Virus record (IMG/VR): IMGVR_UViG_3300029893_000042 | Span: 12,156-34,393 of that record | From: a virus | DNA: 22,238 nucleotides | Reading direction: 5' to 3' (one strand) | Part shown: positions 1 through 20,474 of the stretch, piece after piece | How the letters are laid out: the number at the start of each line of letters is the position of its first letter | Numbering within the stretch: position 1 is the stretch's first letter | The notes under the pieces: generated by a model | The model's database searches: none | Seen by the model: the letters and a program-made list of their open reading frames with translations, nothing else | Told to the model about the DNA's origin: nothing | Translations under genes and position numbers: made by a program

Positions 1-77
1 GGCCTAAAAGCAATATATTGCGGGACGCCATCTCGTCCCTGTCTGCTACATACCCGCAGTTTGTGCAGATATGCGTT
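1..77. repeat. 77-bp exact repeat of 15363-15439 (3' part of tnpB)
   Basis: Bases 1-77 are identical to 15363-15439 by direct reading. They encode the second half of the TnpB zinc ribbon and the DRD...NIL segment. Identity stops abruptly after 77/15439; on the left it probably continues outside the window into the right end. Confidence 0.95.
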
Positions 78-1045
78 CTGACGCTTAGGGATTTTTGTAT
101 CAATTCCCCGCAGTTACTGCATTTTTGTGTAGTATAGCGAGGATTGACTTTCACCAAATGACCTCCAAGCATTCGCAGCTTGTAAGAAGCCATATTGGTA
201 AATACCCCCCAACTGGCGTCATAAATACTTTTTGCAAGATGTTTATTTTTTGTCATTCCCTTGATATTCAAATCTTCTACGCAAACTAAATCATAATTAC
301 TCGCATATTTATAACTTAGTTTGTGCAGAAAATCCTTTCTTTGGTTAGCTATTTTTTCGTGTGTCTTAGCTACCAGCTGTCTTGATTTTTCTCTATTCTT
401 TCCACCCCTTTTCTTTTTTGAAAGCAATCTTTGTTGGACTGCTAGTTTCTTTTCGGTTTTTCTAAAGAATTTTGGTGGCTTTATTTTGTTTCCATCAGTA
501 TCAACAATAAAATGTTTTAGCCCAAAATCTATTCCCACCACTTTCTTTACTCTTTTCGGTTTGGCTTCGGATATTTCATCAATTACCTGTAAATACCACC
601 CGCTTGCTCTTTTTACGAGTCTTGCCGTTTTGGGATTGTTTAGCTTCTGCAACCCTCTGGTTTTTATGCCATTAAGTCCATATTTTTTCCACGCTATGAG
701 ATATTTACCATCTATCTTATAATCCGTTCCGTATTGTCTAAGTGGTATGCTCCTGTATCTGTTTTTACTCTTAAATCGTGGGAAGCCCCCCCTTCTAAAA
801 AAATGTTCATAAGCATTGTTGAGCCGATACACTACCATCTGACGCAAGGAGGCGGGCATATCTCCATATTCTTTTACTTTCTTTTGCAGGTCAAATCTTG
901 AAAGTGTTTTATTTTTCTCTTTATATTCCTTTATTTTCATCTCCAAACAATAGTTATAAAGATTTCTCGACTCCTCCAACAATCTTTCTATTTCAACAAG
1001 TTGTTTTTTGGATGAATAGATTTTAGCCTCTCTTACCAGTTGCAT
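1..1045 (-). CDS. tnpB: TnpB RNA-guided nuclease of an IS200/IS605 element, 3' end cut by window edge
   Basis: I translated this frame by hand: it is open for 348 codons from ATG at 1045 to the window edge. It shows the TnpB RuvC-like layout: GIDFG with Asp173, CVEDLN with Glu257, a zinc ribbon with Cys309/Cys312 and Cys327/Cys330, and DRDEMASRNIL with the third acidic site at about 335-337. Family knowledge: TnpB proteins of about 350-400 residues use an omega RNA from the element's right end to cut DNA next to a TAM and help the element persist. The remnant at 15295-15516 suggests about 20 more residues beyond the edge, ending in EPHTL, so the copy appears intact. A consensus-like promoter lies 6 nt upstream of the ATG and there is no Shine-Dalgarno, so a leaderless mRNA is likely. 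Its closest relatives cannot be determined here. Confidence 0.93.
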   Translation of the reverse strand, partial: MQLVREAKIYSSKKQLVEIERLLEESRNLYNYCLEMKIKEYKEKNKTLSRFDLQKKVKEYGDMPASLRQMVVYRLNNAYEHFFRRGGFPRFKSKNRYRSIPLRQYGTDYKIDGKYLIAWKKYGLNGIKTRGLQKLNNPKTARLVKRASGWYLQVIDEISEAKPKRVKKVVGIDFGLKHFIVDTDGNKIKPPKFFRKTEKKLAVQQRLLSKKKRGGKNREKSRQLVAKTHEKIANQRKDFLHKLSYKYASNYDLVCVEDLNIKGMTKNKHLAKSIYDASWGVFTNMASYKLRMLGGHLVKVNPRYTTQKCSNCGELIQKSLSVRTHICTNCGYVADRDEMASRNILLLG

Positions 1046-1101: not shown

Positions 1102-1122
1102 CCCACCGCTAAAGCAGGTGGG
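1102..1122. repeat. Left-end subterminal hairpin of the IS element
   Basis: Read on the minus strand, CCCACC...GGTGGG arms surround TGCTTTAGC. It matches the layout of the right-end hairpin at 15288-15308. The CTTTAG in the loop supplies the TAG stop (1109-1111) of the upstream methyltransferase gene. Confidence 0.8.
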
Positions 1123-1618
1123 ATTTCCCGCTTATTGTCTTAATTATTAAAACTGCTCCATTATTGTGTCCCTCAATTGGTTTAATGGTAAATCCATGTT
1201 TCTCACAAAACTCATCAACTGCCTGTGTTACACCAAAAGGATTTCCATAATCATCACAGGCAATAACACTTTTACTTAGTGGTAATACTCCTTCAAGGTC
1301 AGCCCTTGCGCTTTCGTATGAATGGTCGCCGTCCACATATACCCAATCATACTTATCCAGTCCCTTAAGCACATAAGGGCTTCTGCCGTATAAAATGTTC
1401 CACCTGTCGCCATATCTTTTTTTAAACAAATCCGCTTTATCCTTTTCATCATCCAGATCAATAGACAACAAATTACCTTTACACGCCTCAAGATAAGCAT
1501 AAGCGCTCATACCCCAACAAAAGCCTATTTCAAGCCCTGTTTTGGGTTTTAGTTTTTTAATAACCGCCATTAGTGGTGGTATATACTGGTCAGAATTTAA
1601 GTCGTCTGCGAATTTCAT
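1109..1618 (-). CDS. Class I SAM-dependent methyltransferase, 3' end overwritten by IS left end
   Basis: A small methyltransferase of 169 residues with a Rossmann-type SAM fold. Motif I is LEIGFCWG (29-36), the acidic end of strand 2 is SIDLDD (52-57), and VDGDHSYE (95-102) is typical of Methyltransf_24/FkbM-like sugar and natural-product methylases. The start chosen is ATG at 1618 (MKFADD), with GAGGTG about 8 nt upstream; a longer in-frame start at 1639 has no better signal. It overlaps the upstream glycosyltransferase by 29 bp and closes the glycan operon, so a glycan methyl cap is the likely job (inference). The last codons (SGKSHLL) and the stop are read from the IS left end. The final strand of the fold (AVLIIK, 155-160) is present, so activity may be kept. 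Confidence 0.8.
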   Translation of the reverse strand: MKFADDLNSDQYIPPLMAVIKKLKPKTGLEIGFCWGMSAYAYLEACKGNLLSIDLDDEKDKADLFKKRYGDRWNILYGRSPYVLKGLDKYDWVYVDGDHSYESARADLEGVLPLSKSVIACDDYGNPFGVTQAVDEFCEKHGFTIKPIEGHNNGAVLIIKTISGKSHLL

Positions 1619-11257: not shown

Positions 11258-11578
11258 TACCCGCACTTTTGGTAAAGTCTTACTAATTTCAGTTTCTTTA
11301 ATTGTTCTCAATACACTCTCAATTTTAGTAAGCTTTCCCTCAAACACTGATATTTGCACATTTCCATATCCATGTCTTTTGACTGCACGCAGGTTATATA
11401 CCATATCAACAACGTCATCCATATCAATATTAAATTTTTCAAGCATATCCATAAACTGAGACATTTCAGGAAATACCGTTTCCAACCATTGTTGGGCAAG
11501 GTCTTTATTGTGCTTTGCTTCCTCTAAATAATTATATTCCGAGGTCTTGGTCTTGGATGTTTTTTGTCTTTTGGACAT
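11255..11578 (-). CDS. Unknown small protein between terminase and portal
   Basis: 107 residues with a basic N-terminus (MSKRQKTSKTKTS) and an acidic, Met-rich helical middle (FMDMLEKFNIDMDDVVDMVYNL). A perfect AAAGGAGG lies 11 nt upstream of ATG 11578, inside the end of the terminase nuclease gene, with a 47-bp overlap. No family recognised. Similar small genes sit between terminase and portal in other phages. Confidence 0.68.
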   Translation of the reverse strand: MSKRQKTSKTKTSEYNYLEEAKHNKDLAQQWLETVFPEMSQFMDMLEKFNIDMDDVVDMVYNLRAVKRHGYGNVQISVFEGKLTKIESVLRTIKETEISKTLPKVRV

Positions 11579-12188
11579 AGGACAGGTAACCTCCTTTCTC
11601 TCCTAATGGCTCGTTTGCTTGTTGATAAAGTTGCCAAACAATAGCAAGGCTCATTACAAGATCGTCATGCGTTCCAGATTCCGCTTGGGCTTTAACCGAG
11701 GCGGTGGTTCTTACCACCACAAATGAATACAACTCTTCAATCGTGGGTTTATCATATATGGTTAAAACCATATTATCTATTGCCTCTTTAAGCTGTGATA
11801 GCATTGCTGGGCGCGTAGCTGTATTTGTGTTCCATCCATATTGTACCGACTCTGGTGGATTCTCACGTCCCACGGTTGGCATTTTAAAAAGTTCAAACTT
11901 CCCCAACCGGTTCATTGAAGCTAGCCTGTCCATTTCAAATGTACCACCAGCATTTCTTTCATATGCAACGACGGGTCTTTTACCTGTAATATCATTAATT
12001 TTTTCAAGGACCGGATAAAGCGCATTGGTCATCTCTGTTGCTATGGTTTTACTGTGATACACAAGCGGTACGTCAAGGTTTGTTTTTGATAAAAATTGTG
12101 CTGCTGAATAATCCCCAAGCCCGCTTGAAGTATCAGCTGCCACCAATATGAATTCACCTGGTTGAAAATCCCTATACTTGCGCCACAT
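11532..12188 (-). CDS. terL: Terminase large subunit, nuclease (RNase H-like) part, separate frame
   Basis: The nuclease half of a large terminase. With the start at ATG 12188, catalytic acids are VAADTSSGLGD (Asp19 and Asp26), AYERNAGG (Glu77) and GTHDDLVMSLAI (Asp175/Asp176). The frame is +1 to that of the ATPase half and the two overlap by about 17-32 bp. ATG 12188 has GAGAGG just upstream, which could allow separate translation; ATG 12203 is a weaker start without one. In most phages both halves are one polypeptide, so this is a natural split, a programmed +1 frameshift or a one-base error. The continuous protein would be about 480 residues, a normal TerL length. Confidence 0.88.
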   Translation of the reverse strand: MWRKYRDFQPGEFILVAADTSSGLGDYSAAQFLSKTNLDVPLVYHSKTIATEMTNALYPVLEKINDITGKRPVVAYERNAGGTFEMDRLASMNRLGKFELFKMPTVGRENPPESVQYGWNTNTATRPAMLSQLKEAIDNMVLTIYDKPTIEELYSFVVVRTTASVKAQAESGTHDDLVMSLAIVWQLYQQANEPLGEKGGYLSYVQKTKNIQDQDLGI

Positions 12189-12975
12189 AATCCTCTCTTG
12201 CATTGTCTAAATACCACTTTAGTGCGTCTGCGCTAAAAAACATTTCACCGGATGATAAAAAAGCCTCTGTGTCTGTTTCTGGATACTCTTGAGGGAACAT
12301 CTCACGTAATTCTTTTTTCTTTTCTTCCAAAAATTCTTTGGGATAAAAATCACTTGCTTTATAAAACAAGGGCTTGAAATTACGCTCACCAAGCTTGCAC
12401 TCATCCCAAAAGGTTTTAAAGTAACCATAACCATTAGCTGTAGTTTCAATAATAACTCTACCCACAGGCACAACGGCTTGCATTGCGCCCGCAATTAACT
12501 TGTCAAAATGAAGATAAAATGCCGCCTCCGAAAAATGAAGGTTTGTAATGGTTTTACTTCTTCCAAAATCCGTATTGTCTGCTGTTCCTATGGTGTAGCG
12601 TGAATTAGTCGCCTCGTTAAAAAGCTCATACTTGCTATTATATTTTAGCGGCACCGGCGTACCAACCACATCCTCATAACTTTTAATATAAAACTTAACC
12701 CGATCAAGCAGTTCCGTTGCATTATCTGATATATCAGCCACGATCACGTTTCTTTGGTTTTCTTTAAGCAAAAAGTCTGCCGTAAAAAGTGCAAGGATAA
12801 GGCTAGAAAATCCTTGCTGTCTTGCCTTCAAAATTACATCTCGCCCTGTAGCGTCATCAAGTAAATATTTATTTTGTATATCATTTAATATGAAGGGTGC
12901 AATCTCGCTTTCCTTGTTGACAAGTTTAAGCCTACCCTCTATAAACTTTTTATATCCCAAATTCTTTTCGTTCAT
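12172..12975 (-). CDS. terL: Terminase large subunit, ATPase part
   Basis: 267 residues forming the packaging ATPase domain. ARQQGFSSL (51-59) is the variant Walker A common in TerL, TNLHFSEAAF (144-153) holds Walker B with catalytic Glu150, and ETTANG (177-182) is the coupling motif. It ends with a TAG stop in YVAQV just where the linker to the nuclease would begin. It overlaps the small-terminase gene by 26 bp. ATG 12975 lacks a clear ribosome binding site, so coupling to terS is likely. The motor would translocate DNA through the portal using ATP. Confidence 0.9.
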   Translation of the reverse strand: MNEKNLGYKKFIEGRLKLVNKESEIAPFILNDIQNKYLLDDATGRDVILKARQQGFSSLILALFTADFLLKENQRNVIVADISDNATELLDRVKFYIKSYEDVVGTPVPLKYNSKYELFNEATNSRYTIGTADNTDFGRSKTITNLHFSEAAFYLHFDKLIAGAMQAVVPVGRVIIETTANGYGYFKTFWDECKLGERNFKPLFYKASDFYPKEFLEEKKKELREMFPQEYPETDTEAFLSSGEMFFSADALKWYLDNAREDYVAQV

Positions 12976-14110: not shown

Positions 14111-14185
14111 TCATCTTGTATATTCTTTATAGCTTTTTTTAAGCTTACTAAAATCTTTGTCGTTTTTAATTGTTATTGTGTTCAT
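14111..14185 (-). CDS. 24-residue micro-ORF, paralogue of the neighbouring microprotein
   Basis: Begins MNTITIKNDKDFSKLKK. Its ATG 14185 lies inside the preceding micro-ORF, and its TGA overlaps ATG 14114 of the next frame. The pattern TIKNDKDFSKL matches IIKNSKELAKL of the ORFs at 14166-14228 and 20325-20471, which supports a shared origin. Short length makes it uncertain. Confidence 0.4.
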   Translation of the reverse strand: MNTITIKNDKDFSKLKKSYKEYTR

Positions 14186-14228
14186 TTACAAGTTTGGCTA
14201 GTTCTTTACTGTTTTTTATAATTATCAT
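14166..14228 (-). CDS. 20-residue micro-ORF, truncated copy of the 48-residue gene at 20325-20471
   Basis: The first 14 residues (MIIIKNSKELAKLV) are identical at DNA level to the start of the gene at 20325-20471 through a 45-bp exact repeat. It then diverges and stops after NEHNNN. No Shine-Dalgarno is seen. It follows the lysozyme-like gene by 20 nt. It may be a decayed duplicate or a genuine microprotein. Confidence 0.4.
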   Translation of the reverse strand: MIIIKNSKELAKLVNEHNNN

Positions 14229-14231
14229 GTT
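14187..14231. repeat. 45-bp direct repeat, copy 1 (copy 2 at 20430-20474)
   Basis: Exact identity over 45 bp with 20430-20474 in the same orientation, 6.2 kb apart. It includes the ATG and first 14 codons of a microprotein but not the sequence upstream of the start. Confidence 0.93.
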
Positions 14232-14815: not shown

Positions 14816-15128
14816 TATTTAAATGTTTTCTAATAAACGGTGTTCCTTTTTTGACAAAAATTGAGATTGGCCTTCTGTGGCTGGTTTTTCTTTTAGTCAG
14901 CGTGTGCCCCACCTTTTCCCACTCTTTTCCGTTAAATACAGCACCATACACCCTGGGGTCTACACCTTTTGGAGTTGTTACTTGCTCCCTTACATCATCG
15001 ATGGTGACGTGGCCTTTTTCTTTAAAAATACGCTCAGCCACCCACCGGCAGTGGGCAAGAAATTCGCCTCTTGTATCCTCAAATAGGTCAAAAGCTTGTT
15101 GTTTTGTTTGTACTGGCAGTTTATCCAT
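14808..15128 (-). CDS. Unknown protein of the replication module, possible winged-helix
   Basis: 106 residues. An N-terminal helical region (FLAHCRWVAERIFKEKGHVTIDDVRE) is followed by a basic strand-rich end (GHTLTKRKTSHRRPISIFVKK), a pattern compatible with a winged-helix DNA-binding fold. I do not recognise the family. ATG 15128 has no good ribosome binding site. It lies just downstream of the IS remnant, which probably separated it from the upstream replication genes. Confidence 0.6.
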   Translation of the reverse strand: MDKLPVQTKQQAFDLFEDTRGEFLAHCRWVAERIFKEKGHVTIDDVREQVTTPKGVDPRVYGAVFNGKEWEKVGHTLTKRKTSHRRPISIFVKKGTPFIRKHLNNE

Positions 15129-15287
15129 TTACTTTTTTCTTACTAAAAACACATTTTTATCTTTTGAAGGTTTTGTAGAGTAGATTATGGTGAGTAACCG
15201 TGCTCCACCTTCTAGCGATCTTTAAAGGCGGGGTTAGGTAAGAAGGTGATAGAAATGAAAAGTTATGAAAAGTTTTTCTGACATCCT
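15129..15287. other. Gene-free stretch with inverted and tandem repeats beside the IS right end
   Basis: No coding frame is supported. It holds an 8-bp inverted repeat, CACCTTCT (15206-15213) and AGAAGGTG (15241-15248), and a tandem 10-bp repeat ATGAAAAGTT at 15255-15264 and 15265-15274, directly next to the IS right end. If the right end acts as an omega-RNA source, its guide would be read from the minus strand just below 15282. Confidence 0.6.
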
Positions 15288-15439
15288 CCCACCCCTAAAG
15301 GGTGTGGGGTTCCTGGTTCATAGGGCTCTCTATTGAGATACCCTCCCCAGTGGCCTTGTCCAGGCCTAAAAGCAATATATTGCGGGACGCCATCTCGTCC
15401 CTGTCTGCTACATACCCGCAGTTTGTGCAGATATGCGTT
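15282..15439 (-). mobile_element. Remnant of the same IS200/IS605-type element: right end plus 3' tnpB
   Basis: Bases 15363-15439 equal window bases 1-77 exactly. The segment continues to the end of tnpB and a right-end palindrome at 15288-15308 (CCCAC...GTGGG arms around CCTTTAGG on the minus strand) that resembles the left-end hairpin at 1102-1122. The left end and the 5' two-thirds of tnpB are missing. The right boundary of homology is sharp at 15439; the outer end near 15282 is estimated. Confidence 0.82.
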
Positions 15440-15516
15440 TTAAAAGCCTGCTCCTTTAACCAATTTTTCCCTAACCCTGCCAAGTACGGCATCCAGAGGG
15501 CAGATTCTACTCGCAT
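15295..15516 (-). pseudogene. tnpB: Truncated tnpB (C-terminal zinc ribbon and tail only)
   Basis: The open frame has 73 codons. About 26 non-homologous residues precede THICTNCGYVADRDEMASRNIL, then LDKATGEG...EPHTL. Half of the zinc ribbon and the first two catalytic acids are absent, so it cannot be a nuclease. It shows what the C-terminus of the full copy probably looks like. The stop TAG lies inside the right-end hairpin. In IS200/IS605 elements this region is also the template for the omega RNA. Confidence 0.8.
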
Positions 15517-15537: not shown

Positions 15538-16011
15538 TCAAAAACCGCTTATTTTTTTAAAGTACTTATCAATCAAACGTGCCTTTTTGTTTTTTATTGA
15601 AACTAAAATATCGTCTGTAAAACTTTCGCTTTTAACAGCTTTTGTAACTTTGTATTTTGTATCAAGGCCGGTTCCATTTCGTGTAACAATCACATCAAAT
15701 TTTTGTGGATCATCTCCGAACTCACACAGTTGGTTTCCAAGCATTGGGCCTGCGTCTAAAAGCTTTACATCACGATTTGCGTAATCAAACACAATCCACT
15801 TCCACACCCTTTTGGGTTCATTGCCTTTTTTACAATGAGGACAGTCCGGTTTTTCCGTACAAAACCCAAGATTCACATATCTATTTGCCGTTTTAAGACC
15901 ATGTTGCATTGCAATAACTCCTTCGCTTACAACCCTTATGCGGTTTTCGCCTTGCTCAAATTTCATAAAGTCAGATGGCCTTTTATAGTTTTGATAATTA
16001 ATTTTTTTCAT
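15538..16011 (-). CDS. Putative gp32-like single-stranded DNA-binding protein with zinc site
   Basis: 157 residues. It has FMKFEQGENRIRVVSEG (15-31), His37, then Cys51-x5-Cys57-x2-Cys60 (GFCTEKPDCPHC), and an aromatic strand VWKWIVFDYANRDVKLL. This order of His and three Cys followed by OB-fold-like strands recalls T4 gp32-type zinc-containing SSBs, but it is much shorter than gp32 (about 300). It overlaps the RecB-type nuclease gene by 14 bp, which fits a replication/recombination role. Moderately sure of ssDNA binding, not of the exact family. Confidence 0.6.
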   Translation of the reverse strand: MKKINYQNYKRPSDFMKFEQGENRIRVVSEGVIAMQHGLKTANRYVNLGFCTEKPDCPHCKKGNEPKRVWKWIVFDYANRDVKLLDAGPMLGNQLCEFGDDPQKFDVIVTRNGTGLDTKYKVTKAVKSESFTDDILVSIKNKKARLIDKYFKKISGF

Positions 16012-20350: not shown

Positions 20351-20471
20351 CTTCTCCTTTCTCGTCGCTTGAAGGTTCAAATTCTATACGCACATCATCA
20401 TCGGGAAGAATTAAGTTTTTATTTTCGTCTACAAGTTTGGCTAGTTCTTTACTGTTTTTTATAATTATCAT
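20325..20471 (-). CDS. 48-residue acidic microprotein with MIIIKNSKELAKLV start
   Basis: Residues 1-14 are shared exactly with the micro-ORF at 14166-14228. The tail is acidic and disordered (LPDDDVRIEFEP, then Glu/Asp/Lys-rich). No Shine-Dalgarno at ATG 20471; it follows the structured region 20490-20559. The end overlaps the next gene. The complete reading frame and overlap with a gene with a good start favour a real gene. Confidence 0.55.
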   Translation of the reverse strand: MIIIKNSKELAKLVDENKNLILPDDDVRIEFEPSSDEKGEDEKENTNT

Positions 20472-20474
20472 GTT
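20430..20474. repeat. 45-bp direct repeat, copy 2 (copy 1 at 14187-14231)
   Basis: Identical to 14187-14231; covers the first 14 codons of the 48-residue gene and three bases before its ATG. Confidence 0.93.

Follow-up and report, generated by a model that had tools for sequence, protein, structure and literature searches.

The window analysed here, 22,238 nucleotides of a phage (positions 12156-34393 of the 34,393-bp viral record IMGVR_UViG_3300029893_000042), contains a complete tnpB-only element of the IS200/IS605 group and, about 15 kb from it, an orphan remnant corresponding to the end of that element, and the remnant is probably the scar of a faulty excision by the Y1 transposase TnpA rather than a random fragment (Table 1). 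On the minus strand the remnant reads ...GGCTTTTAA|AACGCATATC...GATGTCAG|AAAAACTTTTC, and it contains the omega-RNA scaffold region, the C-terminal codons of tnpB (...CTNCGYVADRDEMASRNILLLGLDKATGEGISIESPMNQEPHTL*), and the right-end (RE) hairpin, without the rest of tnpB and without a left end (LE). An earlier note on this DNA had described these contents accurately but had set the limit of the right end at 15282, whereas the RE ends at 15278, and it had missed that the edges of the remnant match TnpA cleavage signals.

Table 1. Features of the complete element and of the remnant (window positions unless marked as record positions)
Feature	Position	Strand	Comment
Complete element	window 1139 to record 12070		about 1,225 bp; sole gene is tnpB
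tnpB of complete element	2..1045	-	348 aa visible; 3' end lies outside the window, on the other side of a 10-N gap
Left end of complete element	1102..1139	-	GACAATAAGCGGG-AAAT(GL)-hairpin CCCACC..GGTGGG; GL rule from IS608 (PMC5934647)
TTAA target/TAM flanking the left end	1140..1143	.	five other phage contigs have the empty site
Internal TCAG in tnpB (plus strand CTGA)	78..81	-	proposed pseudo right-cleavage site
Remnant	15278..15439	-	162 bp, matching the final 162 bp of the complete element save 9 nt facing the N gap
TTAA abutting the remnant on its left	15440..15443	.	where LE would have stood
GR guide tetranucleotide GAAC	15309..15312	-	immediately 5' of the RE hairpin; partner of TCAG under the GR/CR rule
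RE subterminal hairpin CCCACACCCTTTAGGGGTGGG	15288..15308	-	
CR cleavage site TCAG	15278..15281	-	final 4 bases of the element, where scaffold meets guide
Putative 20-nt remnant guide AAAAACTTTTCATAACTTTT	15258..15277	-	function predicted only

The TnpB of the complete element contains OrfB_IS605 (94.8 bits) and Cas12f1-like_TNB (76.3 bits) domains and retains all of the RuvC acidic D/E/D motifs (GIDFG, VEDLN, and DRDEMASRN), which bears out its earlier description as intact-looking; within the collections searched, its best relatives share about 34-38% identity with it across the full length. A Y1 TnpA (PF01797) was not found in the 34-kb record by a search that gave matches in 5 of 14 control genomes, and the element is therefore classed as tnpB-only rather than as an autonomous IS605, which would require a TnpA of its own, as the tnpB-only group does not. 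Along with the OrfB_IS605 and TNB zinc-ribbon domains, the complete copy displays the other features of the tnpB-only (IS1341-like) group, namely both subterminal hairpins and insertion on the 3' side of a short fixed motif with no target duplication. On the minus strand its left end reads TTAA|GACAATAAGCGGG-AAAT-hairpin and its right end GAAC-hairpin-AGGATG-TCAG|, giving TTAA as the target and TCAG as the end; two TTAA motifs lie near the left end, and the choice of one rests on homologous junctions in other phages.

The comparator is IS608, in which GL AAAG pairs with CL TTAC and GR GAAT pairs with CR TCAA (PMC5934647). In the complete element the first three letters of the tetranucleotides are equal to those of IS608 and the fourth co-varies (AAAT/TTAA and GAAC/TCAG), with position 4 of GR complementary to position 4 of CR, and the right ends of relatives obey the same rule, with GAAT:TCAA in cyanobacteria and GAAG:TCAC in Streptococcus and Enterococcus phages. 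GAAC, 27 intervening nucleotides, and TCAG together form a 35-nt right end from GR to CR, in agreement with the length that the name of the RE35 substrate in PMC5934647 implies. By analogy, the GL and GR pairing of IS608 supports the prediction of a TTAA target and a TCAG end. The element thus resembles IS608/IS605 in its GL/CL and GR/CR logic, in its 35-nt right end, and in insertion, with no duplication, on the 3' side of a fixed motif; it differs in carrying tnpB only, without TnpA, in having TTAA and TCAG in place of TTAC and TCAA, and in being accompanied by a remnant copy without a left end.

Removal of the complete element predicts an empty site, TTAA|ATGAAAATAATTTATAG, at a point where a methyltransferase gene ends on a stop codon that overlaps the ATG of its downstream neighbour (MKIIYRIS...). 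This 21-mer is found exactly in five IMG/VR contigs, each time at the junction between an upstream gene and the MKIIYRIS gene; the downstream protein is 26-28% identical to that of the phage studied here in four of the five (E 1e-15 to 3e-18), and in the fifth the downstream gene is truncated by the end of the locus. Outside data thus support TTAA as the target, TCAG as the end, and the way in which the assembly pairs the flanks. A degenerate search for the start of the MKIIYRIS gene gave 15 contigs, of which seven match the 20-nt guide of the complete copy without mismatch, four of these matches adjoining TTAA and the others TAAA or TCAA. It is the guide of the complete element, rather than that of the remnant, that matches other phages beside a TAM, which had also escaped the earlier note, and judging from these matches TnpB with this guide could act as a phage-to-phage drive. 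Such a drive would resemble the plasmid TnpB gene drive (PMC11870625), in which the guide keeps a record of the insertion site and is directed against homologues that lack the insertion, with the differences that the uninserted homologues are here phages and that cleavage is here only predicted; the exact match of the guide, with a TAM, to a conserved gene start in other phages makes an inter-phage TnpB drive testable. Matches of this guide to the MKIIYRIS gene start, mostly exact and with or near a TAM, occur in loci L097-L101, L111-L113, and L115 of the set examined.

The identity between the two copies had been reported by the earlier note as 77 bp (window 1-77 and 15363-15439), and this match is exact but was under-measured. 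Window base 1 comes right after 10 Ns (record 12146-12155) inside tnpB, and it is for this reason that the visible identity stops at 77 bp; the window start is accordingly an internal scaffold gap, and we rejected the reading of it as a plain contig end. Beyond the gap a further 76-77 bp are identical between the complete element and the remnant, and the true shared block is the whole 162 bp, with the 9 nt that face the gap seen in the remnant only. In the record, tnpB and the gene after it come out of ORF finding as one fused frame, solely because nine bases are represented by ten Ns. The arrangement of 77 bp, gap, and 77 bp may be the residue left when a k=77 assembly graph collapses a repeat of 163 bp, assigns it to one copy, and scaffolds the other. 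The 77-bp overlaps and the 10-N gap at the other copy raise the possibility that the assembler joined the wrong flanks and that the remnant is an artefact, but five phages show the very gene junction that the assembly assigns to the complete copy, and the other flank pair therefore belongs to the remnant. On the basis of these empty sites a wrong pairing of the repeat flanks appears unlikely, and an artefact of assembly is the explanation that we regard as very improbable.

The argument for a scar rests on the edges of the remnant. Its junctions are TTAA|AACGC...TCAG|flank, and those of the complete copy TCAG|AACGC...TCAG|flank, with the same bases standing directly after an internal TCAG of tnpB in the complete copy (CCCTAAGCGTCAG|AACGC), where the segment common to the remnant begins (base 77 downwards). 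We propose that the phage once carried a second copy of the element, inserted 3' of a TTAA, and that TnpA, supplied in trans, cut this copy correctly at the TTAA|left end boundary, whereas the right cut would have been misplaced, falling after the internal TCAG, 162 bp before the true end. Excision would then have sealed TTAA to AACGC, so that most of tnpB was lost together with the left end and the last 162 bp, comprising the omega-RNA scaffold and the right end, stayed behind. As the record holds no TnpA, the transposase must have come from elsewhere. The resulting scar would be immune to renewed cutting by TnpB, because TTAA no longer adjoins the guide. The TTAA and TCAG motifs were fixed independently, three internal TCAG are present in the 1,225-bp element, and TTAA has a frequency of 0.0088; the joint chance of finding both edges on the motifs is about 2e-5, a figure to be read with the caution that the match of the edges was both first seen and evaluated at one and the same locus, in a single case. 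Upstream of the internal TCAG, the pseudo right end also resembles a true end only weakly, having a weak hairpin and a GAAT that involves a G:T wobble, and hairpin statistics over all TCAG sites do not single out the internal site.

If, instead, a second full copy had inserted and an unrelated deletion had taken its left part, the position of the edges would be accidental. Decayed IS200/IS605 copies are common, with 23 loci decayed to differing degrees in Halanaerobium (PMC7290912) and an internally deleted copy in a Crocosphaera MAG (L074), but ordinary decay needs both edges to have matched TTAA and TCAG by chance, and the compared bases are identical, so the deletion must have followed soon after insertion; we consider this origin rather unlikely. 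The Crocosphaera copy, a miniature derivative at about 1475-1603 in which about 30 nt of left end are joined to 103 nt of right end, was rejected as a comparable scar, being an internal deletion that keeps LE and RE. One-ended transposition, in which TnpA would have cut at the internal and the terminal TCAG of the complete copy and the 162-nt segment would have inserted at a second TTAA as a mini-element, yields identical final junctions and needs no prior second copy; as there is no left end there is, however, no GL to pick the TTAA target, and IS608 targets via GL, which makes this route improbable. The remnant also shares with PATEs and other ends-only derivatives (Haloquadratum and Halanaerobium) the character of short non-coding IS200/IS605 remains. 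PATEs and MITE-like elements retain both palindromic ends, for mobilization by TnpA, whereas no left end is found from 15440 onwards, and identification as a PATE was rejected (compare PMC7290912).

Relatives of the remnant locus that might show an intact or empty site were sought. No relative was found, the neighbouring proteins at 15538 and 15998 had no relatives among viral contigs, and the RE core searched as a DNA pattern gave no viral match. Neighbours of TerL were tried as a source of empty sites and set aside, as the genomes concerned share TerL with this phage but show no synteny elsewhere. The large terminase subunit of the phage is itself split into two overlapping genes (window 11532-12203 and 12172-12975), a split conserved in relatives (L007-L013), with about 450 nt between the halves in L011 and L012.

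The earlier note had proposed that the remnant supplies a second guide in trans. As an omega-RNA, the remnant has what is expected, a structured scaffold of about 100-150 nt that ends at the RE, with the variable flank as guide; with 20 nt of flank it folds at -72.5 kcal/mol, compared with -49.1 for shuffles (z -6.6). Near the 3' end of the predicted fold GACA pairs with UGUC, a modelled pairing that recalls the pseudoknot of ISDra2. A scaffold of 116 nt is enough in ISDra2, where sequence farther 5' can be dispensed with (PMC10097598), and TnpB itself trims the 5' end of its own RNA (PMC10278001). Comparison with Rfam gave no family at threshold, and a sub-threshold match to enod40 was taken as chance. 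No promoter stands out for the region; read-through transcription is plausible because the remnant lies between genes (preceding stop at 15538, next start at 15128) and on their strand.

A working trans-acting locus would mean that the TnpB of the complete copy loads the remnant's RNA and cuts at TTAA plus AAAAACTTTTCATAAC. What stands of this proposal is the complete-looking 162-nt scaffold with its strong fold, an RNA on the coding strand of the phage, an intact-looking TnpB, the trimming of 5' ends by TnpB itself (PMC10278001), and an orphan omega-RNA/right end in Enterococcus phage EF1, in whose record no TnpB was found. Against it, the predicted target TTAAAAAAACTTTTCATAAC (TAM and guide), a single AT-rich query, has one exact match among 2.9 million viral contigs, and this match lies outside any homologous context; moreover the guide is low-complexity, no promoter was seen, the locus has no relative among those searched, and there is no sign of selection beyond identity, which recency explains. 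We therefore regard a working trans-acting guide as doubtful, although such a role is compatible with a scar origin, and read-through RNA loaded by the phage's TnpB as a second guide is possible. More generally, though with similarly low expectation, mis-excision by TnpA might yield guide-only scars that TnpB does not cut and that arm it with a second target beside a first guide directed against a gene start common to diverse phages.

Orphan TnpB guide loci are usually regarded as products of random decay, and edges on the transposase's own cut motifs would point to a specific route to them. Precise excision recreates the TnpB target and would be destroyed, whereas a mis-cut scar does not recreate it and could persist, and this route is directly testable with a TnpA/TnpB pair. 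The system resembles the ISDra2 TnpB-reRNA/omega-RNA in that the RuvC nuclease gene overlaps the scaffold, the guide comes from the flank, and the TAM is the insertion motif, and it differs in the orphan scaffold and in that TnpB activity is here only predicted. For IscB, trans-acting orphan omega-RNAs were reportedly described by Altae-Tran et al. in 2021. Enterococcus phages EF1 and EF5 likewise have an orphan omega-RNA/right end between genes of a phage genome, of another sequence family; in EF1 (L106, MF001358.1) it is an unannotated region at 2501-2614, the record has no TNB-domain protein, and EF1 is a phage precedent for orphan guide regions. In the window studied here there is also a 60-nt repeat, 92% identical between its copies at 14172-14231 and 20415-20474, one of which (minus strand) starts MIIIKNSKELAKLVNEHNN.
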